Source: Holosporaceae bacterium (GTDB taxonomy: Bacteria; Pseudomonadota; Alphaproteobacteria; UBA3830). From it: DNA of 36,612 nucleotides. Position 1 is the stretch's first letter; every line of letters begins with the position of its first letter. The notes under the pieces are model-generated. The model saw only the letters and a list, made by a program, of their open reading frames with translations. It did no database searches and was not told where the DNA came from. A program made the position numbers and the translations under genes. Of this stretch, positions 20,582 to 30,065 are shown piece after piece. The stretch covers positions 1 to 36,612 of the forward strand of contig JAISQI010000043.1 of assembly GCA_031274295.1 (NCBI GenBank), written 5' to 3'.

Positions 20582-20656
<75 letters not shown>

Positions 20657-20857: not shown

Positions 20858-21976
20858 ATGCTTAATCTGCTGAAGTATTTTAGCGCCAAAAAAGAGGACA
20901 TATTTTTTACGTATCAAGGAATCAACAGTCCGCAATGGACGCCATGTAGATACGACGCTCTTTCAGCAGAGGGATTTCAGAAAAATGTATTTGCTTTTCG
21001 CGCCATTAATCTAATATCCAGAGGAATTTCATCGATTCCCGTCTCCATAAGGAGTTGTCATGACCGAAAAGAAGACGAATTTCTAACCAATGTTTTCAAT
21101 AGACCAAACGAATCGCAAACTAAAAGTTCTTTTTTGGAAAATCTGGTGAATTATCTTCTGATATCCGGAAACGCTTTTGTAAATTGTGACAACGAAAACA
21201 AATTGCGTTGCTTACGTACGGATCGCGTAGATATAGTGCCCAACAAATCCAAAACAGCGGTGGAGTCGTATGTGTACTCTGTGGATCTATCCAAATTTCC
21301 CGTGGAAAAAAAGGATATGTTGCATTTGAAGTTTTTTAATCCATTAAATGATTGGTACGGGTTTAGTCCGCTACATGCGGCGTTGCGTGCCATCGATCAG
21401 CATAATGAAATGTCGAAGCATAATCTATCGATTTTGCAAAATGGCGGTCGGCCCTCCGGATGTTTGGTGGTTAAAAATTCAGAAAATCTAACAGAGGAAC
21501 AGCGGCAGCAGCTGCGGTCTGATATTCGCGACGCCTACGAAGGAACGGCAAATTCAGGCCGAGTCATGGTTCTCGAGGGCGGACTCGAATGGAAGGAAAT
21601 GGGGCTATCGCCTCGGGATCTAGATTTTAATACCGGAAAAAATCTCGCCGCTCGCGAAATCGCTCTAGCGTTTGGAGTTCCTCCGCTGCTTATGGGAATC
21701 CATGGAGATTCCGCTTTTGCGAATTACAAAGAGGCCAGGCTTCATTTTTGGGAAGATACAATAGTTCCTCTGGCGGAGTTCATTCGCCTCGAATTTAGCA
21801 GTTGGTTGTCGGTCAGGTTTGGTCGGCAGGTTGAAATGGTTTTTGATTTGGACGCCGTTCACGCACTCATATCTAGGCGTGAGAATTTATGGAACAAGAT
21901 ATCAAGCGCGGATTTCCTAACTATAAACGAAAAAAGAGAAATTTTAGGATATCCGCCAATGAAGGAACAAAAATGA
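20858..21976 (+). CDS. Phage/GTA portal protein (HK97 family)
   Basis: The portal is the ring through which DNA enters the capsid and to which the head-tail connector binds. The sequence has LLISGNAFVN, LRTDRVDIV, YGFSPLHAALRAID, GGRPSGCLVV, LEGGLEWKEMGLSPRDLDF and EIALAFGVPPLLMGI, all as in portals of the RcGTA g3 type. The start is the ATG at 20858 with GGAGGG six bases upstream; the frame is open to a TTG 15 codons earlier that has no ribosome site. The product has 372 residues, normal for the family. Its stop overlaps the protease start (ATGA). No terminase gene precedes it; the 200 bases upstream hold only the tRNA promoter and spacer. Confidence 0.92.
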   Translation: MLNLLKYFSAKKEDIFFTYQGINSPQWTPCRYDALSAEGFQKNVFAFRAINLISRGISSIPVSIRSCHDRKEDEFLTNVFNRPNESQTKSSFLENLVNYLLISGNAFVNCDNENKLRCLRTDRVDIVPNKSKTAVESYVYSVDLSKFPVEKKDMLHLKFFNPLNDWYGFSPLHAALRAIDQHNEMSKHNLSILQNGGRPSGCLVVKNSENLTEEQRQQLRSDIRDAYEGTANSGRVMVLEGGLEWKEMGLSPRDLDFNTGKNLAAREIALAFGVPPLLMGIHGDSAFANYKEARLHFWEDTIVPLAEFIRLEFSSWLSVRFGRQVEMVFDLDAVHALISRRENLWNKISSADFLTINEKREILGYPPMKEQK

Positions 21977-22491
21977 AGTATTTAACGCAACATCTGCATT
22001 TAAAATCGATAAGCGAAGATGGAGAAATATCCGGATATGCCAGCGTATTTAACGTGGTGGACGGATATGGAGATATCGTAATGAAAGGCGCCTTCACCAA
22101 TGCAGTTGAAATTTTTGCCGCGGGAGGAAAAAAACCAAAACTGCTCTGGCAGCACGATGTGAATTATCCGATCGGAGTAATAAATGAAATTTTCGAGGAT
22201 AACTACGGCCTTTTCGTGAAAGCGAGATTGCTTTTGGAAATTCCAAAAGCGCAAGAGGTATATTTTCTGCTGAAAAACAAAGCAATAGACGGATTTTCCA
22301 TCGGATATAAGGTTAAAAATAATTATTTCAAAAATAACAAGCAATATCTGACGGATATTAATTTGTTGGAAGTGTCGATTGTAACTTTTCCAGCTTGCGA
22401 ATCCGCAACGGTTGAAGACGTAAAGTACTGCGACAATATTCTTGGAAAAATTAAAGCGATATCACAAAAAATAAAGGAAAAAATTAAATGA
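21973..22491 (+). CDS. HK97-family prohead protease
   Basis: Prohead proteases cleave the capsid delta domain during maturation. The family triad is in place: His61 in LLWQHD, Ser109 in IDGFSIGYK and Glu133 in LLEVSIVTFPA. GYASVFNVVDGYGDIV at the start is also typical. The product has 172 residues. I chose the ATG overlapping the portal stop; the open frame extends 28 codons further upstream inside the portal gene, which is unlikely to be translated. The stop overlaps the capsid start by ATGA. Confidence 0.92.
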   Translation: MKYLTQHLHLKSISEDGEISGYASVFNVVDGYGDIVMKGAFTNAVEIFAAGGKKPKLLWQHDVNYPIGVINEIFEDNYGLFVKARLLLEIPKAQEVYFLLKNKAIDGFSIGYKVKNNYFKNNKQYLTDINLLEVSIVTFPACESATVEDVKYCDNILGKIKAISQKIKEKIK

Positions 22492-23621
22492 ATAAGGAAA
22501 TAGAAGAAGCCATTTCTGAATTAAACGCCAACATAGGAGAGTTTATTCAAAATAGCGAAGAAAAGATGAAAAAAATGGAAGTTAATATGACGAAAAATGA
22601 GGGCAATCAAACAATGCCGCTGTCGGGAAATCTAAGTGGAGATGTGTATAAGAAATCTGATTTCAGCGAATACATTCGCAAAGGAAACGACGATTTTTTA
22701 ACAAAATCTCTCAGCGATAAAGACGGATCGTGCGGCGAATGCTTCATTCCCCGGGAAGTTACTCTGCGAATCAATGATAGATTGAAATTATTGTCTCCGA
22801 TGAGAGCGATTTCTCGAGTTATTACGATTTCTTCAAATTCTGTGGACCTGTTGATGGATACCCAGATGCCGGACGCAGGATGGGTGGCAAGAAGTGATGA
22901 GGAAAGAGAAGAAACTGATTCTCCAGAGGTTCAGAAAATAAAAATACCCGTCCACGAAATATATGCAAAGCCGAAGGTCAGCCAAAAACTTTTGGATGAT
23001 TCTCAGATTGACATAGAAGAATGGCTAACGACCAAAATCGCAGAGAAAATCGCCGCTCTAGAAAATGACGCATTCATAAACGGCAGCGGCAGCGAAAGGC
23101 CGCTTGGCTTTTTGAAAGTGGATTCCGAGGATAAAGAAAAGAGGAGCTTCGGCAAGCTTCAGCATTTCTACAGCGGAGCCGCGGGTAAGTTTACGGATAT
23201 TGATGCGGCCGTCGATCTATTGGTCGATATGGTTTGTTCTCTAAAGCCGATTTATATAAAAAATGCAAAATGGATTATGTCTAGATCTGCACTTGCTGAA
23301 ATTAGAAAATTGAAAAATAAAGATGGAGTTTGTTTATGGCAGCCGTCTTTGTCAGAAGCGACTCCGTCAACTTTGCTGGGATATCCGGTGATTATTGATG
23401 ACGACATGCCGATCCTTGCAGAAGGAACAGAATCTACCGCCATGGCTTTTGGCGATTTCCATTCCGGATATCAAATTGTGGACAGGCAAGGTCTAAAGAT
23501 TTTACGCGATCCATATACGTCGAAACCGTTTGTGGAATTCTATGCAACTAAACGTACGGGGGGTGCGGTTGTGGATTTTGACGCGATTAAGCTGTTGAAA
23601 TTTAACGAAAAAACAGAGTAG
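22488..23621 (+). CDS. Major capsid protein (HK97 fold)
   Basis: The first 40 residues or so are a charged coiled coil (KEIEEAISELNANIGEFIQN), the scaffolding delta domain that the neighbouring protease would remove. The body has SPMRAISRVITISSNSVDLL, a SERPLGFL loop, WIMSRSALAEIRKLK, LLGYPVIIDDDMP and AFGDFHSGYQIVDR, all capsid hallmarks shared with RcGTA g5. The 377-residue length is normal. It starts at the ATGA overlap with the protease. Nothing suggests loss of function. Confidence 0.93.
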   Translation: MNKEIEEAISELNANIGEFIQNSEEKMKKMEVNMTKNEGNQTMPLSGNLSGDVYKKSDFSEYIRKGNDDFLTKSLSDKDGSCGECFIPREVTLRINDRLKLLSPMRAISRVITISSNSVDLLMDTQMPDAGWVARSDEEREETDSPEVQKIKIPVHEIYAKPKVSQKLLDDSQIDIEEWLTTKIAEKIAALENDAFINGSGSERPLGFLKVDSEDKEKRSFGKLQHFYSGAAGKFTDIDAAVDLLVDMVCSLKPIYIKNAKWIMSRSALAEIRKLKNKDGVCLWQPSLSEATPSTLLGYPVIIDDDMPILAEGTESTAMAFGDFHSGYQIVDRQGLKILRDPYTSKPFVEFYATKRTGGAVVDFDAIKLLKFNEKTE

Positions 23622-23638
23622 CGGGGAGTGGAAAATTG

Positions 23639-24241
23639 ATGGAGCTAAATCTAATAGAAAAACCGTCGTCCGAGATTATTACGCTCGAAGAGGCGAAAAA
23701 TTATCTCCGCATAGATCACGATTTTGATGACAATCTTATTTTAAGTTTTATAAGATCCACTCGGGAAGCGATGGAATCCATCATTCAAAAATCAATAATG
23801 AAGCAAACATGGGAATATAAATTGCACGATAGCTCGATTTGCGATTTTGATTTTCATGAAAGCGATTACCCAAGTATCTTTAGCGGCACCATGAGAATTA
23901 CGCTGCCGAAACCTCCTATTATCAAGATTATCAGCGTCGCCGTCGATGAGGCAGAAATTAATCCCGGTAAATACTCCTTGGAAAAAGTGAGTAATAAATT
24001 TTATTTGTGCGTTAATAGTGAAAAGTTTTTCAGCGTCAGTCGGCGAAAAATTTCCGTGAACGTAGTATACGAGGCCGGGATCGCCGATTGCGTTGAAAAT
24101 ATTCCCTATCAATTGAAATTAGCCAATCTGATGCTGGTGGCCAACGCATTCCAGGAAAGATATTCCTATAAGCAAAATAGCGTGATTTCTCAAGGAGTTA
24201 AACAGCTGCTGGGCCCATTTTTAAATCTGAGGGTTTTTTGA
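23639..24241 (+). CDS. Head-tail connector (phiE125 gp8 / gp6-like)
   Basis: The N-terminal helical part, ITLEEAKNYLRIDHDFDDNL, with a run of helices following, is typical of gp6/phiE125 gp8-type adaptors (RcGTA g6) that close the portal. The product is 200 residues. GGGAG lies ten bases before the ATG chosen; a TTG one codon earlier has better spacing and may be used. It follows the capsid gene closely, as in RcGTA. Confidence 0.8.
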   Translation: MELNLIEKPSSEIITLEEAKNYLRIDHDFDDNLILSFIRSTREAMESIIQKSIMKQTWEYKLHDSSICDFDFHESDYPSIFSGTMRITLPKPPIIKIISVAVDEAEINPGKYSLEKVSNKFYLCVNSEKFFSVSRRKISVNVVYEAGIADCVENIPYQLKLANLMLVANAFQERYSYKQNSVISQGVKQLLGPFLNLRVF

Positions 24242-24245
24242 AGTT

Positions 24246-24530
24246 ATGAGATTATTTAACACGAAGATAAAAATAGAAACCCTCGAGAAAAAATTGTCCC
24301 AAGATAACCTCTGGGTTTCGGAATATAAATTTTGGAACGAAGTTTGGGCTTCCATTTCAATCAAAGATATTTCATCCAGGCGAGTGTTGTACCTTTTTAC
24401 CATAAAGTGGAAACATGATTTTCCTTGCGAATTTCGCGTGAGCATCAAGGATAAAATTTTCACGCCAACTCAATTGCCAATAGTAGAACCGTCTCAGGAT
24501 TTGATTTTATTCCACGCAACTGTCAACTGA
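24246..24530 (+). CDS. Head-tail adaptor (phage head-tail joining family)
   Basis: A small protein of 94 residues with KIKIETLEKKLSQDNLWVSE and the WNEVWASISI segment, which resembles the WATVWASIEP core of SPP1 gp16-like/RcGTA g7 adaptors, followed by beta strands including FRVSIKDKIF. It begins five bases after the connector. The order supports the call more than the sequence alone does. Confidence 0.7.
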   Translation: MRLFNTKIKIETLEKKLSQDNLWVSEYKFWNEVWASISIKDISSRRVLYLFTIKWKHDFPCEFRVSIKDKIFTPTQLPIVEPSQDLILFHATVN

Positions 24531-24567
24531 TTTCAATTTTTTAGAAAAATACAAAGGAAAAAATAAT

Positions 24568-24948
24568 ATGATACCCTGGGATCTCGGCATCATAAATGCC
24601 ATAAGAAAAGAACTGGAGCTTGCAATTTTTCCATCAAATCCGCCGGAAGAATTGCGAAAGACTCCCTATCTGATTTTTGAATTAAAAAATATTTTGCCGG
24701 GAAAGAATCTAATGTCTCGGGTGGAATTCTCCATTACGATTGTAGATGATAAAGAGGTCACCGGTGCTAGCTTCGAAGTTCTAAAGGCAATTAATAAAAT
24801 TATCAGTCGGGAACTGACATTGTCTCAGGAGGAGGCCACAATCGGAAGCGCAAAAGCCAAAATAAATTCCATCGAAAGTAAAAAGAACAATCTTGTGCTG
24901 AATTTAATAGCAATATTGAAATTGGAAGCTATTTACGAGGACGAATAG
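24568..24948 (+). CDS. DUF3168-like tail-terminator/completion protein
   Basis: A protein of 126 residues with a short alpha/beta fold and the sequence PYLIFELKNI near residue 32 and VEFSITIVDD. Its position after the head-tail adaptor and its size match DUF3168 (RcGTA g8), which closes the tail at the head side. AGGA lies about ten bases before the ATG. Similarity in motif is weak, so the call rests mainly on order. If right, a tail-tube partner would be expected downstream, and none is seen. Confidence 0.55.
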   Translation: MIPWDLGIINAIRKELELAIFPSNPPEELRKTPYLIFELKNILPGKNLMSRVEFSITIVDDKEVTGASFEVLKAINKIISRELTLSQEEATIGSAKAKINSIESKKNNLVLNLIAILKLEAIYEDE

Positions 24949-24951
24949 AAT

Positions 24952-25050
24952 ATGAACGAAAAAGAATCAGAAGAAATAGACGATCTGGCCGAGTATCTGG
25001 AATGCTTGGCCAGAATGACTCCAACAACTATGCCAGAATGGATGGATTAG
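24952..25050 (+). CDS. 32-residue acidic ORF in the phage cluster
   Basis: The frame MNEKESEEIDDLAEYLECLA plus twelve residues ends in TAG directly followed by the ATG of the next gene. It is acidic and probably one helix. In siphophages a short tail-assembly chaperone occurs at this place, but this is too short and too weak to assign. It could be a remnant of a lost tail segment. Confidence 0.4.
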   Translation: MNEKESEEIDDLAEYLECLARMTPTTMPEWMD

Positions 25051-25560
25051 ATGAATGAAACAAATCTTATACTAGGTTTTTCTGGATTACCTCCGGAAAG
25101 CGCTAGAAATTGTACGCAAGAATTATCCCCCATTCCCAATGGAGAATTCAGAAAATCAATTAACGGAGATTTATTGTTTCTGGAAACCACAGAACGCAGA
25201 CGCTACAGGAGCATAATCTCCTGTAAAGACACTAATTCTCCAATTATTAGTGGCATTTGGGTCGGATCACAGATTTCGGTCGGATGCATACAAAATTTGT
25301 GGCAGGTTATAAATCCAGGAGAACTAAAAGTCGGACTTGTTCGTCCTGCGGTGGAGGACTCCATCTGCGTTATTAATAATTTGGGAGATGCCATAAAGTT
25401 TAGAGCGACTAATGATGAAGTGGAGTTGCGCAAAACCTATGAAGAAAAGGTCTTTGTGGGTTTTCGTCCGTGGTTAATAATGAAAGTCATCAATTTTTCA
25501 TTGGAAACGGACGAGTGGGGCGTATCAAACGGCTGGAAGTTGATACTCGAAGAGATTTAA
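25051..25560 (+). CDS. Unrecognised phage tail-type protein
   Basis: This 169-residue protein has FRKSINGDLLFLETTERRRY followed by SIISCKD, then SGIWVGSQISVGC, and ends NGWKLILEEI, a beta-rich pattern that resembles small tail proteins of alphaproteobacterial siphophages. I can name no family with certainty. It starts right after the preceding stop (TAGATG), so it is coupled. The antisense transporter gene ends seven bases past its stop, so the phage operon is interrupted here. Confidence 0.5.
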   Translation: MNETNLILGFSGLPPESARNCTQELSPIPNGEFRKSINGDLLFLETTERRRYRSIISCKDTNSPIISGIWVGSQISVGCIQNLWQVINPGELKVGLVRPAVEDSICVINNLGDAIKFRATNDEVELRKTYEEKVFVGFRPWLIMKVINFSLETDEWGVSNGWKLILEEI

Positions 25561-25567
25561 TGCCGGA

Positions 25568-26449
25568 TTAGGTGACACAGGGGCGCCGCGTTTCACTGTA
25601 AGCCAGATAAAATGTGCTCGGAATTAGAATCAACGCTCCAATTAGGACGTTTACTCCCGGCACTTCTCCAAAGAAGACGAAGGCAAAATAGGCGCTGAAC
25701 AGGAACTCCATATATCTAAATGGAGACAGGGCAGACAGATCAGTTGCACTGTAGGATTTGAAAATGAAATATTGTATGAGATTGCCTCCGGCTCCGAGCA
25801 AAAACAGCATGGAGAACTCGTACAACGTCGGCGTTTTCCATACGAGAAGCGCTGGAATAAACGAAATGATACTTGTAACGAGCGCGAAATATAAAAGCAT
25901 GGTGACTCTATTTTCCACATCTACAATTTTTTTGATCATTACATCCTGCGCTGCAAACAAAAATGACGCTGCAATCGGAACTATATATAGCCATTGCAGG
26001 GAGACGGATACGTTACTGTTGTACAATGTGATGAAAGATAATCCTAGAAATCCGACTATCGTAGCGGTCCACCTCATAATGGAAACATGCTCCTTCAGAA
26101 AAAATATGGAGAGAATAATAACGAAAAGAGGAATGGTCCATAGAATTGTTATAACTTCCACAAGCGGAAGATATATGACGGAATACGTATACAGGAAAAT
26201 ACTTATCGCTCCAAGTATCCCTCTTATTAGATTAAATCCAAGTTGCTGGGTTTTAAAAATCTGTTTTCCTTGCAAAATGGCAAATGGAAATAAGGTTATT
26301 AACCCAAAGAAGAATCTGAAAAAGATCACCTGGAGGGAGTCCAATCTCTGTCCAACAAATTTTACGATGATGTCGTTAGTGCAACTTACGATCATCGTCA
26401 TCATGAGGAAAAATAGGCCTTGATAATAACCTTTTCCACTTAAAGTCAT
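25568..26449 (-). CDS. EamA/DMT-family transporter inside the phage cluster
   Basis: The 293-residue protein has about ten hydrophobic segments in two related halves, each with an EamA-type core (FFRFFFGLITLFPFAI; SPFRYMEFLFSAYFAFVFFGE). Rickettsial members include an S-adenosylmethionine importer; the substrate here cannot be told. GGAG five to six bases before the ATG at 26447-26449 decides the start; the frame is open 14 codons further upstream. It is on the opposite strand to all phage genes, seven bases from one and 63 from the next, as a moron-type cargo gene would be. It has no visible terminator. Confidence 0.82.
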   Translation of the reverse strand: MTLSGKGYYQGLFFLMMTMIVSCTNDIIVKFVGQRLDSLQVIFFRFFFGLITLFPFAILQGKQIFKTQQLGFNLIRGILGAISIFLYTYSVIYLPLVEVITILWTIPLFVIILSIFFLKEHVSIMRWTATIVGFLGLSFITLYNSNVSVSLQWLYIVPIAASFLFAAQDVMIKKIVDVENRVTMLLYFALVTSIISFIPALLVWKTPTLYEFSMLFLLGAGGNLIQYFIFKSYSATDLSALSPFRYMEFLFSAYFAFVFFGEVPGVNVLIGALILIPSTFYLAYSETRRPCVT

Positions 26450-26512
26450 GAATTCTCCACGAAATTGCAAGATAGTAGATGTATACAACATTTATAGAAA
26501 AAAGGAAAGAAG

Positions 26513-28324
26513 ATGAAAATAATATTTGACTGGAGCGCTGTATTCCATGAAGAAAAAAACAATTGGCGCGGCGATGAAGAAATAATAGCTCTAGAGATTT
26601 TTCAAAAAGAATGCGGATTTGCAATGGCAAAAGTATCAATTGGTGCTAAAAATTCGAATGATTTGTTAAATAAAAAGTACGCCAAAATAGGTATCCAAAG
26701 ACAAGGAAAGGTGGATTTACTCTTTTCTGGACGATTGGTGGCTTTTCCAGTTGGATTTAGCAATTCGACAATGGAAATTGAACTTATCGCAGAACCCGAC
26801 GACTATCAAATGAAATTACGCGAGTTTTCCGGCAGAAATTTCAATCTGTATCGTTCCGTCAATAAACACGAGAAGGAGAGAGGACATATTCTCTTCGATG
26901 ATCTGTTTTTTTCATCGAATGATTTAAAAAATCCAACTATTTTTTTGGAAGGAGATAATAAAATTTTCTACTGGAATATGAAAAATGGAGAATTATCGCT
27001 ATCCGACATAAATTGTGGACGAAAAAACTTTGATGTTAGTGGAAATGAAATCCTGCAAAATTCCATTAGGATTAGAATAGCCAGAGAGCCATACGGAGTC
27101 GTTAATTTAAAGCTGTCCGCCAGTTGGATTCAGCAAGAATATGGAATTATCGATCTTATGCCAATTATGGCTCGAGAATTCGATCGACACCTAATAAATT
27201 CATTTACAAATATCAAATCTGGAATCGAAAATATTTTTTCCGAAAAAAAGGGATACAAATTAGCTCATTGTGATATACGGGAAATGAATTCGACCGACGT
27301 TGGCGAAACGCATCCGGTTTTATCTCCCAATTTTTATGTCCAGGAGAACGAGTCGGCGGACAGAAAAAAAGTGCTGTTCAAGCGGTTTTATTTCGACGGA
27401 AAACTAATTCTTCACTGGGCTTATAAACAGAAAAGAGTCGAGGTTGTGAACATAAAAATTATTAACTCGTCGTCTCCTGGCGGGCGGGAGAAAAATGTTT
27501 ATCTCCGGTTGAACGCAATTCAATCGCCAAAAAAATACCAAGTCTGGAATCATTTCACTTACTACGGGTACGGCGATAAGATTCAGCGCGGAGAAGATGT
27601 TTGGAAGTGTAAATCTCCACACGTTTCTGATGAAAATTTCGAGATGGACAAATGGGATTTTGAACAGAAGATTCCGGACGCCATGACGGACGAAACGAGT
27701 TCGTCGTTTTTCGTAAAGACTCGGGGAAAAAATGCCATAAAATATGCAATGCAAAAAGCAATTGCGTTGATCAATTACTCGTCCCGCTACATCGAAATAG
27801 ATTTTTGTGTCGAGGCGAAAAAATTCATGGCGGCTACCGTCGATGATCAAATTACGATCCGAGATAGAAGATTTAAAAATGGATTTATAGCTGGAAAAAT
27901 TATCAGAACGACGTTTAGCGGAAACGCCGACCACAGAATTATGAAATTCACCATCGGGTGTTGCGACTCTGATCAATTGAGAAATTTCGAAAAGCTCAAT
28001 TCCTACGAAATTGAAATAGCGGACGACGATAGCAAGATAAATCCGGCGGACATTGTGAAAAATATCGAAATAAAAAATAAGCCGGAGGAGCAGATTTCTA
28101 TTCTTTCTTCGAAGGCGGCGCGCAATGTTTCGGAATTGCAAAACGAATTGAAAAAACATCCGACAAAAATCAAGGTTTCTCTTCATCCGCTGAATACAAG
28201 CAGGGTGATTACGCGCGAAATAACTCTTCCGAGTTTGGCGCTAAATGTTGGGTCAGATCGGGGGCCGGGTGAAATAGCAAAATCATGTTTGCTCGATGTT
28301 TTGGAATCCGTCCACGACGAATGA
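26513..28324 (+). CDS. Large tail or adhesion protein, 603 residues
   Basis: I do not recognise the whole protein. It is rich in beta-type sequence. Residues about 344-378 read YGYGDKIQRGEDVWKCKSPH and on to W, the Y..GD.V...G..W.C...H.S pattern of carbohydrate-binding modules found in phage tail fibres and chitinases. The following part (NAIKYAMQKAIALINYSS) is helical, and the C-terminal 100 residues look charged and partly coiled. AGGA lies seven bases before the ATG. A hub, baseplate or host-binding role is an inference from size, module and position. Confidence 0.55.
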   Translation: MKIIFDWSAVFHEEKNNWRGDEEIIALEIFQKECGFAMAKVSIGAKNSNDLLNKKYAKIGIQRQGKVDLLFSGRLVAFPVGFSNSTMEIELIAEPDDYQMKLREFSGRNFNLYRSVNKHEKERGHILFDDLFFSSNDLKNPTIFLEGDNKIFYWNMKNGELSLSDINCGRKNFDVSGNEILQNSIRIRIAREPYGVVNLKLSASWIQQEYGIIDLMPIMAREFDRHLINSFTNIKSGIENIFSEKKGYKLAHCDIREMNSTDVGETHPVLSPNFYVQENESADRKKVLFKRFYFDGKLILHWAYKQKRVEVVNIKIINSSSPGGREKNVYLRLNAIQSPKKYQVWNHFTYYGYGDKIQRGEDVWKCKSPHVSDENFEMDKWDFEQKIPDAMTDETSSSFFVKTRGKNAIKYAMQKAIALINYSSRYIEIDFCVEAKKFMAATVDDQITIRDRRFKNGFIAGKIIRTTFSGNADHRIMKFTIGCCDSDQLRNFEKLNSYEIEIADDDSKINPADIVKNIEIKNKPEEQISILSSKAARNVSELQNELKKHPTKIKVSLHPLNTSRVITREITLPSLALNVGSDRGPGEIAKSCLLDVLESVHDE

Positions 28325-28339
28325 ATATGAAAGGGAAAA

Positions 28340-29227
28340 ATGACGCTTACTAGAGGAATAAGAGCTTTGTCTACGGGATATTACCGCGATTTTCTAGACG
28401 TGCCGGATACGGACGAAAATTTATCAACTTATATTATGATGGAATCGAAGCAGGATAATTGTGAGGTCTCGGTGGCGAACGCTTGGCCCGATTCTATTAT
28501 GCTTAATGCCAGCATGACGTCGGTTGAAATATCAAGCGATATATATATGGAACGAAGGGAAAATGCGAAATTAATAGCGGAAACAAAAATATATAATAAT
28601 CCGAAAATTGATTCTCAATCGAATATATCCAACCCGGCGTCCTGCTGTTCGAAAGTGGTGGTAAATTTCGAGAATATCGGCGGATACGTCCTGGGAAAAG
28701 ACGTTCAGAATTTTGTTGGAAAGGATTTCGGAGATTATCGGATAAATTTACGTTCGAACTGCCTGTTTGAAAAGGAATTTCTCGTTAGTTCGCATTCAAT
28801 TTCAGAAATCGTAGATCAAGAAGGAGCAGTTCTGCATGAACATACATTTGCGAAATGCAAGATTTATCCCTACGGCGGGTTTTTCGAATATGGAATGCAT
28901 CCGCAGCTGGTAGAGTCATGTATTTTTCGGGCAGTGCACGACGGGAATTCGCTAAGCCTGCGAATATCCCCCCTGAGCGCATTGCGAAGTCTTGGAATTG
29001 ATCCCTGTGAAGATCAAAGAGAAGAATCCGGGTATCAATTTGTTGGGGTAAAGAATTTTTCCGAGCCGCAGAAGATAACTCTCTATGACGAATTGAAAAA
29101 CGGAGCCTGCGCAATAGAAATAACAAATAGAAATACCAAAGAAAAATCCATCTATAGAAGTAATGCAATTCTGCACGTACCAAAAACCAATTTAATCACA
29201 ATTAACTTTATCGGAGAGGAATTATGA
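28340..29227 (+). CDS. Unrecognised phage-cluster protein, 295 residues
   Basis: A soluble, beta-rich protein with no signal peptide or clear motif. A CC pair (PASCCSKVVV) and several other cysteines occur in the middle. It begins 15 bases after the 603-residue gene and overlaps the hydrolase gene by ATGA. Position between the large tail protein and the lysis genes suggests a distal tail component. At about this size and position RcGTA g13 (DUF2163) would be found, but I cannot see its motifs. Confidence 0.5.
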   Translation: MTLTRGIRALSTGYYRDFLDVPDTDENLSTYIMMESKQDNCEVSVANAWPDSIMLNASMTSVEISSDIYMERRENAKLIAETKIYNNPKIDSQSNISNPASCCSKVVVNFENIGGYVLGKDVQNFVGKDFGDYRINLRSNCLFEKEFLVSSHSISEIVDQEGAVLHEHTFAKCKIYPYGGFFEYGMHPQLVESCIFRAVHDGNSLSLRISPLSALRSLGIDPCEDQREESGYQFVGVKNFSEPQKITLYDELKNGACAIEITNRNTKEKSIYRSNAILHVPKTNLITINFIGEEL

Positions 29228-29643
29228 AATTCTCAAAAAATGATCTTGATATTCTCGCCAGAACGTTGTACGGAGAAGGCAGGGGAGAATTATATAAATT
29301 CGGAATAGCTTCTCTAATGGCAATCGCGAGTGTCGTCGTAAATAGAAAAAATAAAAATTTTGCCGAAACCATCAGCGACGTCTGCTTGGCTCCATACCAA
29401 TTTTCCTGCTGGAATTCAAAAGATGTAAATTATGAAAAAATAAAAAATGTTACTCGAGAATGTTCAATTTTTAAAACTTGTCTCGAAGTGGCGGAAAATG
29501 TTCTGCTGGAAAAATGGCCGGACATAACGGATGGATGCGACCATTATCACGAAAAAACCATAAAGCCGTTCTGGGCGGCTTACCTCGAGCCAAAACGAAT
29601 TTTTGGCGCTCACCATTTTTATGAATTAAGGAGAAAAAAATGA
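29224..29643 (+). CDS. SleB/CwlJ-type cell-wall hydrolase (endolysin)
   Basis: LARTLYGEGRGE near residue 11 with the catalytic Glu (about 18), the ASVVVNRKN stretch and APYQFSCWN are hallmarks of the Hydrolase_2 family, lytic enzymes that cut peptidoglycan. At 139 residues it is a lone catalytic domain without signal peptide, as in phage endolysins that depend on a holin. It overlaps the preceding and following genes by ATGA. RcGTA uses an NlpC/P60-type enzyme at a comparable place, so this module is different. Confidence 0.85.
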   Translation: MKFSKNDLDILARTLYGEGRGELYKFGIASLMAIASVVVNRKNKNFAETISDVCLAPYQFSCWNSKDVNYEKIKNVTRECSIFKTCLEVAENVLLEKWPDITDGCDHYHEKTIKPFWAAYLEPKRIFGAHHFYELRRKK

Positions 29644-30065
29644 CGATAGAAAAAATAATTTTGGATTCTATAAAATCCGCGAAAAATGAAATAATAGATG
29701 GAGTATTAAATACGGTGAAACCGGAGACTCCTAAAACCGAAATCAGACGAACGGAAATGTCCGGTTCCAAATCTGCGGACGGTCAGAACAACAGCAATGT
29801 AAGCATAATAAACGCCTACAGTCGCAACAAAAGATTAAATATTATGGTCATCGGCGCGGCTTTGGGATTAATTTTCTGTTTGTTGATGCTCACTTCTTAT
29901 AAAAGGGATTTGCCCGGAGAAGTTGTGGGCATAATATCGACCATATCAGGAATTTTCGGCGCTTGTCTCAAGGATGCCTATAGCTTTGAATTCGGATCAT
30001 CCCGCGGCAGTAAGGATAAGGACGATAAAATATCCTCAACAATTCTAGAGAGAATGAAACATTGA
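29640..30065 (+). CDS. Holin-like two-span membrane protein
   Basis: The 141-residue product has a charged N-terminal domain, two membrane spans (about residues 67-86 and 93-110) and a polar, charged C-terminus FGSSRGSKDKDD. Many phage holins of the class with two or three spans end in such a GSS..GS..K tail. It overlaps the hydrolase gene by ATGA, and a terminator follows the stop directly. Lysis function is inferred from topology and context. Confidence 0.65.
   Translation: MTIEKIILDSIKSAKNEIIDGVLNTVKPETPKTEIRRTEMSGSKSADGQNNSNVSIINAYSRNKRLNIMVIGAALGLIFCLLMLTSYKRDLPGEVVGIISTISGIFGACLKDAYSFEFGSSRGSKDKDDKISSTILERMKH

Follow-up and report, generated by a model that had tools for sequence, protein, structure and literature searches.

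Among the closest described counterparts of the locus considered here are the GTA clusters of George et al. 2022, who reportedly found head-only GTAs in Holosporaceae and in Rickettsiales endosymbionts. In these reduced-genome symbionts the head genes are said to have been kept under purifying selection, with tail components reported missing, and we take these GTA head clusters to be very probably of the same lineage as the present one. Relative to them, a Dit and hub tip is identified here, tube and tape measure were looked for and not found, and co-inheritance of the large terminase (TerL) is shown. Likewise, the reduced-genome symbiont Orientia tsutsugamushi carries conserved, dispersed GTA genes (terminase, portal, capsid and protease) together with a DUF2163 and a TIM-barrel protein of the g13/g15 type (PMC10732058), whereas g15 (PF13550) is absent from the present genome. 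With RcGTA and RcGTA-like elements the cluster shares the order portal, protease, capsid, Ad1, Hc, Tt, a TerL of the same family, vertical inheritance, purifying selection and a multi-locus organisation. Unlike RcGTA, however, it is without a g9 tube or a g12-g15 baseplate, no g11 tape measure was found, its Dit and hub are different, TerL is unlinked, an antisense EamA gene lies inside, and portal and TerL form a clade separate from the RcGTA-like one.

The window (the whole stretch of DNA analysed, 36,612 nucleotides) is a contig of a Holosporaceae bacterium, with the head genes at 20858-24948 on the + strand. The portal gene (g3 equivalent; 20858..21976; PF04860 3.6e-76, TIGR01537 6e-68) starts with an ATG at 20858 preceded by GGAGG, and is followed by genes for a prohead serine protease (g4; 21973..22491; PF04586 3.6e-30, TIGR01543 7.8e-33), an HK97-type major capsid protein (g5; 22488..23621; PF05065 2.5e-79, TIGR01554 6.6e-99) and the head-tail connector/adaptor Ad1 (g6; 23636..24241; PF05135 2.9e-8, TIGR02215 7e-20, phrog_442). 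By sequence the order corresponds to RcGTA g3-g8, the last two equivalents being tentative. Hc, predicted to be head-closure/stopper-like (g7; 24246..24530), is assigned from profile alignment with RcGTA-like g7 (E 3.7e-4, probability 36%) and from remote homologues in the same slot that match the g7 model. Tt, possibly tail-terminator-like (g8; 24568..24948), matches phrog_957 at E 0.008, and homologues in its slot from other families match the RcGTA-like g8 model. The first-pass annotation had described an intact head module in g3-g8 order, coupled by ATGA overlaps and unmarked by frameshifts or stops. The module holds, with Pfam- and TIGRFAM-type matches for portal, protease, capsid and Ad1 and then small connector-like genes, and no frame disruption occurs within the window. 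Coupling by ATGA overlap applies to four junctions (portal/protease, protease/capsid, orf295/hydrolase and hydrolase/holin) but not to capsid/Ad1, Ad1/Hc, Hc/Tt and Tt/orf169, which are separated by 14, 4, 37 and 102 bp, respectively.

Beyond the neck lies orf169 (25051..25560, + strand), which predicted fold and homologue position suggest is a Dit-like distal tail ring protein. Its AF2 model (pLDDT 82.8) found its best match by structure comparison (VIA) in the R4C Dit at Z 8.6, a middling value that leaves Dit and tail tubes (Z 7.7-8.0) tied within a probable tail-tube/distal-tail fold. An EamA-family transporter gene (25568..26491, - strand; PF00892 3.1e-26) then runs antisense between orf169 and orf603, a position that it holds in most relatives. 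The product of orf603 (26513..28324, + strand; AF2 pLDDT 86.2) matches phage, eCIS and T6SS hubs at Z 14-16 over ~210-295 residues (VIA) and is accordingly modelled as a baseplate hub of the gp27/Mu gp44/VgrG fold, with a CBM5/12-like (chitin-binding-type) insert found by profile match at ~profile positions 346-381. In two long-tailed phage-like loci, L126 and L140, the tape-measure gene is followed directly by a Dit-hub pair that aligns from end to end with orf169 and orf603 and shares their order; this position, together with the fold, supports the reading of orf169 as a siphophage-type Dit. There the pair comes after a tape measure (and in L126 also after a major tail protein), both of which are gone here, and in the present cluster EamA separates Dit from hub. 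On these grounds the cluster is best read as comprising head, neck and tail tip but neither tube nor tape measure.

The remaining three genes, also on the + strand, complete the cluster. By position only, orf295 (28340..29227) encodes a putative tail-tip/receptor-binding protein; it has no database match, yet is kept across the family with a dN/dS of 0.15. As a counterpart of the 933-aa protein that follows the L126 hub it was rejected, the two showing no match. A SleB/Hydrolase_2 cell-wall hydrolase (29224..29643; PF07486 1.4e-14, phrog_938 endolysin 5e-18), a candidate endolysin or tail-borne lysin, is followed by a holin-like membrane protein (29640..30065; phrog_1544 6e-5, with a conserved hydrophobic segment). 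A PDB sequence search with the orf169 and orf295 profiles returned nothing meaningful, and a known-phage search with the L126 Dit and with the hub, taken from both the window and L126, gave no match. When the profiles of orf169, orf603 and orf295 were compared directly with RcGTA-like g9-g15, there was again no match, which together with the absence of PF13550 bears out the first-pass view that the downstream genes are not the RcGTA g9-g15 set. Its description of them as a non-standard tail and lysis set is apt for the SleB-type hydrolase and holin-like protein but not for the tail genes, which form a recognisable Dit and hub tip.

Given the same annotation's claim that tail tube and tape measure are missing, it is pertinent that PF06199, PF10145 and phrog_13338 were all not found in this genome. 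Across the order the tube model PF06199 was found in 0/46 genomes and the g15 model PF13550 likewise in 0/46, with each present in 5/5 control genomes carrying full RcGTA-like clusters; phrog_807 was uninformative as a tube probe, matching nothing even in the controls. The g12-g15 baseplate set was similarly not found, g15 being sought genome-wide and g12-g14 within the cluster. Within the reach of the models used, this genome has neither tube nor tape measure; its assembly is fragmented and 92.5% complete, such that a fast-evolving tape measure could be missed elsewhere. Further, in each of the 33 loci measured Tt and Dit lie 32-440 bp apart, which leaves no room for genes of a tube and a tape measure. 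A 4.4 kb gap between Ad1 and Dit in L108 was considered as a tube-bearing intermediate and rejected, as it holds no tube or tape measure; it contains two connector-sized genes, then antisense secreted-protein-like genes. A normal long-tailed GTA whose tube and tape measure sit overlooked at another locus is nevertheless conceivable, as TerL itself lies apart on another contig, tail genes can become too divergent to be recognised, and PF10145 tape measures do occur on other contigs of 10 family genomes. We regard it as unlikely in view of the 0/46 result for the tube and of the PF10145 matches themselves, which have a patchy distribution, are often present in several copies and do not occur in this genome. 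The one examined, in L193, is preceded by ORFs resembling a P2-type tail tube and gpE and in our reading belongs to a separate prophage.

The terminase, which had been listed as missing, is indeed missing from the cluster but not from the genome. A single predicted TerL, its ATPase and nuclease motifs both intact, stands alone on another contig (C28); no small terminase was identified. Most genomes of the order carry one copy of TerL, and its motifs are conserved among relatives. Although unlinked, it forms a clade of its own that parallels that of the head genes, and it follows the host in its divergence, which supports both earlier suggestions, a GTA variant and one part of a split GTA. With a portal in the cluster and TerL in the genome, an encapsulin or other capsid-only compartment is excluded, and the presence of capsid and portal, with no sheath among the cluster genes, does not fit a contractile injection system or tailocin. 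Retention of a terminase whose motifs are intact makes the first-pass alternative, a purely capsid-like secretion device, less likely. In its wider form, a domesticated capsid-like or injection device through which protein or other non-DNA cargo would reach the eukaryotic host or competitors, this alternative draws on the likeness of the orf603 fold to eCIS and VgrG spikes, on the chitin-binding-type insert in the hub and on the probable life of these bacteria as symbionts within eukaryotes. Phage hubs have the same fold, however, the cluster holds no sheath or contractile parts, and portal and TerL are kept under selection, making such a device quite improbable.

Conservation is extensive. 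Among 50 genomes of the order (Holosporales) orf169 is present in 44, including 24/25 of the most complete, and both it and, among relatives, the capsid gene are nearly always single-copy; orf169 and the module also recur in many other small-genome alphaproteobacterial families. Median dN/dS values of 0.05-0.27 place all genes under purifying selection, and within the family distances correlate with those of the host dnaN for capsid (r 0.70), Dit (0.74), hub (0.67) and TerL (0.81), with 0/999 permutations each. The cluster is thus vertically inherited under purifying selection, as RcGTA-type GTAs are, and has apparently persisted over a very long period in these reduced-genome bacteria; the selection and cross-species conservation proposed as a check on domestication are both seen. 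Split genes occur in a few relatives (portal in L071, hub in L094, capsid in L106 and L109), and two family genomes, G018 and G034, lack capsid and orf169. Some genomes carry gene insertions inside the cluster. The split genes, the insertions and the adjacency of phage head genes to a tRNA-Thr could be taken as signs of a prophage in decay, or a cryptic one, in which the head genes have survived by chance. We consider this very improbable, since it is already contradicted by conservation and selection: orf169 is widespread in single copy, every gene is constrained, and the cluster co-diverges with its host. The flanks consist of housekeeping genes and, as first noted, no integrase lies nearby; no left/right direct repeats of at least 11 bp flank the cluster. 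The tRNA-Thr was rejected as an attachment site, there being no repeat and no conservation of the tRNA as a neighbour. The features of a temperate prophage, integrase and att sites, are therefore wanting.

Read from sequence, the gene content and order, the conservation of the cluster under purifying selection, its inheritance along with the host and a separately encoded TerL whose motifs are intact lead us to propose, at a probability of roughly 70%, that the cluster specifies the particle of a GTA that is vertically inherited, split between loci and stub-tailed, having lost its long-tail parts, and that is best placed as a lineage sister to RcGTA-like elements. The first-pass observations are in this way confirmed in part, and their interpretation is partly supported. 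Capsid, portal and protease would build an HK97-type head, which TerL from its separate locus would fill with DNA, probably that of the host; Ad1, Hc and Tt would close the neck. With tube and tape measure gone, the orf169 ring and the orf603 hub, the latter with its sugar-binding-type insert, would attach straight to the neck to give a stub tail, whose tip orf295 probably completes. Hydrolase and holin may serve particle release by lysis of the producer, opening of the recipient wall, or both, and transfer would be between neighbouring symbionts. Whether this extends to a GTA lineage across many reduced-genome alphaproteobacterial symbiont families, in which tube and tape measure were lost, the tip docked on the neck and the particle was kept functional for DNA exchange inside eukaryotic cells, we judge to be evenly balanced.

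Compared with the reported head-only GTAs, what appears to be new here is the conserved tail tip. The GTA genes of obligate symbionts have so far looked like tailless leftovers of doubtful function; a conserved tip under selection and a co-inherited terminase make a working particle plausible and name the proteins to look for. If the proposal is true, it would document the loss of the tube, in nature, from a particle that once had a long tail, and strongly reduced symbionts, usually thought to be cut off from gene exchange, would have a dedicated machine for sharing DNA.

The genome that carries the window, which is its contig C64, is a 1.05 Mb assembly in 71 contigs with a completeness of 92.5%, and its nearest relatives by sequence are metagenome-assembled genomes (MAGs) of Holosporaceae and Holosporales. 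Rumen animals are the source of several close-relative MAGs among those with a stated source, many other close relatives bear isolate codes resembling termite-gut samples and may come from that habitat, and freshwater-like names appear among the more distant ones; the comparison draws on draft MAGs. The cluster is flanked by housekeeping genes (ribosomal proteins, prfB, an MFS transporter, tmk, a D,D-carboxypeptidase, mlaE and alanine racemase). A tRNA-Thr(GGT) (20582-20656) lies just upstream of the portal gene, and in genome G010 a tRNA-Thr(GGT) sits within the cluster, in the interval between Dit and EamA genes (L045 11318-11392). Portal, prohead protease, HK97 capsid and the connector Ad1 all have strong matches in Pfam, PHROGs and NCBIfam. 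The first small gene after Ad1 is g7-like (E 3.7e-4 in profile comparison) and the second matches a g8-like connector weakly, both identities being firmer because same-slot homologues in other families match RcGTA-like g7 and g8 models. Beyond these follow orf169 (25051-25560), an EamA transporter gene on the minus strand (25568-26491), orf603 (26513-28324), orf295 (28340-29227), a SleB-type hydrolase and a holin-like protein. No reading frame is disrupted, as the first-pass annotation held, and the ATGA coupling that it described is seen at four junctions only; at the others the genes do not overlap. Elsewhere, protease and capsid apparently form one fused ORF (L086, L092, L095, L097-L099, mostly rumen MAGs), and in some draft loci a single gene spans two frames (L071 portal, L094 hub, L106 and L109 capsid), through either real disruption or assembly error.

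In the window genome the reported lack of a tail tube is borne out and that of a tape measure is probable: it has no match to PF06199, PF10145 or phrog_13338. A fast-evolving tape measure could escape such searches. Across the order, tail tube PF06199 was found in 0 of 46 genomes searched, whereas the five full RcGTA-like clusters that served as internal controls all have it; g15 (PF13550) shows the same split. In each of the 33 loci measured, the terminator-like gene and orf169 are separated by just 32-440 bp. Matches to PF10145 do occur in ten genomes of the family (G022, G030 and G032 among them), patchily, often in multiple copies and on other contigs. At the one such locus examined, L193, the gene comes after ORFs interpreted as encoding P2-like tube and gpE proteins and is therefore assigned to a separate prophage, which suggests that these Holosporaceae harbour P2-like prophages distinct from the cluster.

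The genes that follow the connectors resemble a tail tip. The AlphaFold model of orf169 is good (pLDDT 82.8), and its best VIA match is chain G of the siphophage R4C entry, which we take to be Dit (Z 8.6 over 159 residues), followed by tail tubes, RcGTA's own included (Z 7.7-8.0). These values are middling by VIA's own guide, and the evidence from gene position therefore matters. In two long-tailed phage-like loci, L126 (an IMG/VR contig, with a major tail protein also encoded upstream) and L140 (in the 5 Mb genome G318), the tape-measure gene is followed immediately by homologues of orf169 and then orf603, and profile alignments run near full length with probabilities of 99.6% (Dit) and 100% (hub) for L126 and 98.9% and 99.9% for L140. 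The orf603 model (pLDDT 86) has the gp27/Mu gp44/VgrG hub fold (VIA Z 14-16) and an insert similar to the chitin-binding domain of chitinase A1, which is absent in several more distant Holosporales hubs. Small separate genes match this carbohydrate-binding-like region of the hub model (L058 126-527, PF02839; L141 14510-15061), which suggests that the sugar-binding module shifts from hub to fibre-like gene or back. No database match was found for orf295, a putative tip or receptor-binding protein by its position.

The absence of a terminase, correct for the window, does not hold at genome scale. A genome search located a single TerL, encoded on contig C28 by an isolated 400-aa ORF amid non-phage genes. 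Its Walker A, Walker B and acidic nuclease residues are kept among relatives, and most of the order's genomes have the gene, nearly always in one copy. No small terminase was identified. In the TerL tree, 14 of 15 sequences from genomes with such a tubeless cluster group in a supported clade (100/98) distinct from the TerLs of RcGTA-like elements and phages, and the portal tree repeats the pattern (29 of 30; 100/99), the exception being G068, which groups with an RcGTA-like cluster. The capsid tree is less clean, since a phage sequence (Cd) adjoins the group and long branches leave the placement unsure. On these trees, the unlinked TerL and the cluster's head genes most likely belong together. 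The G068 locus (L156) is a mosaic, its TerL-portal-protease-capsid-Ad1 run akin to that of RcGTA-like G055, while the hub (and Dit) behind that run is of the tubeless type. In G039, of the same order, TerL, protease, portal and capsid lie together in a different arrangement (L057) and Dit lies on another contig (G039:C22:181522-182040), scattering the element further.

Within the order, 44 of 50 genomes encode orf169, as do 24 of the 25 that are at least 90% complete, nearly always as a single copy with an open frame. The antisense EamA gene holds a fixed place between Dit and hub in most Holosporales loci, and the module with antisense EamA recurs in numerous small-genome families elsewhere in the class; loci with this arrangement include L071, L080, L103, L112, L141-L144 and L151. 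The f21 genomes, the smallest at 0.6-0.8 Mb, have the module and lack EamA. The proposed per-gene comparison across relatives gave dN/dS medians of 0.05-0.27 for all genes, by Nei-Gojobori on moderately diverged pairs, with usable pairs few for some genes (5-12) and dS often high: portal 0.05, protease 0.16, capsid 0.07, Ad1 0.10, Hc (head closure) 0.26, Tt (terminator-like) 0.27, Dit 0.06, hub 0.09, orf295 0.15, hydrolase 0.11, holin 0.19, TerL 0.07 and EamA 0.08. Protein distances of the head, Dit, hub and TerL track those of host dnaN: within the family, capsid, Dit, hub and TerL give r 0.67-0.81, a level that 0 of 999 permutations attained. The module is thus inherited vertically rather than acquired by repeated infection.

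George et al. (2022) reportedly described, for Rickettsiales and Holosporaceae, head genes that evolve under purifying selection and are not accompanied by tail genes. Dispersed GTA genes have been described as a conserved set in Orientia (PMC10732058), and Kogay et al. (2019) found Rickettsiales and Paracaedibacterales to be without RcGTA-like clusters under their criteria (PMC6821227). As far as can be told, the new elements are a conserved tip of Dit and hub, the finding, tested across an order, that tube and g15 are absent, the co-inheritance of TerL and the fixed antisense EamA. The simplest particle that these genes would build is a stub-tailed GTA, in which an HK97-type head with a closed neck carries a tail tip and lacks a tube. 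The unlinked TerL would package its DNA, the hydrolase and holin, judging from their protein families, would release it by lysing the producer, and, with no tape measure, delivery would need to resemble that of short-tailed phages.
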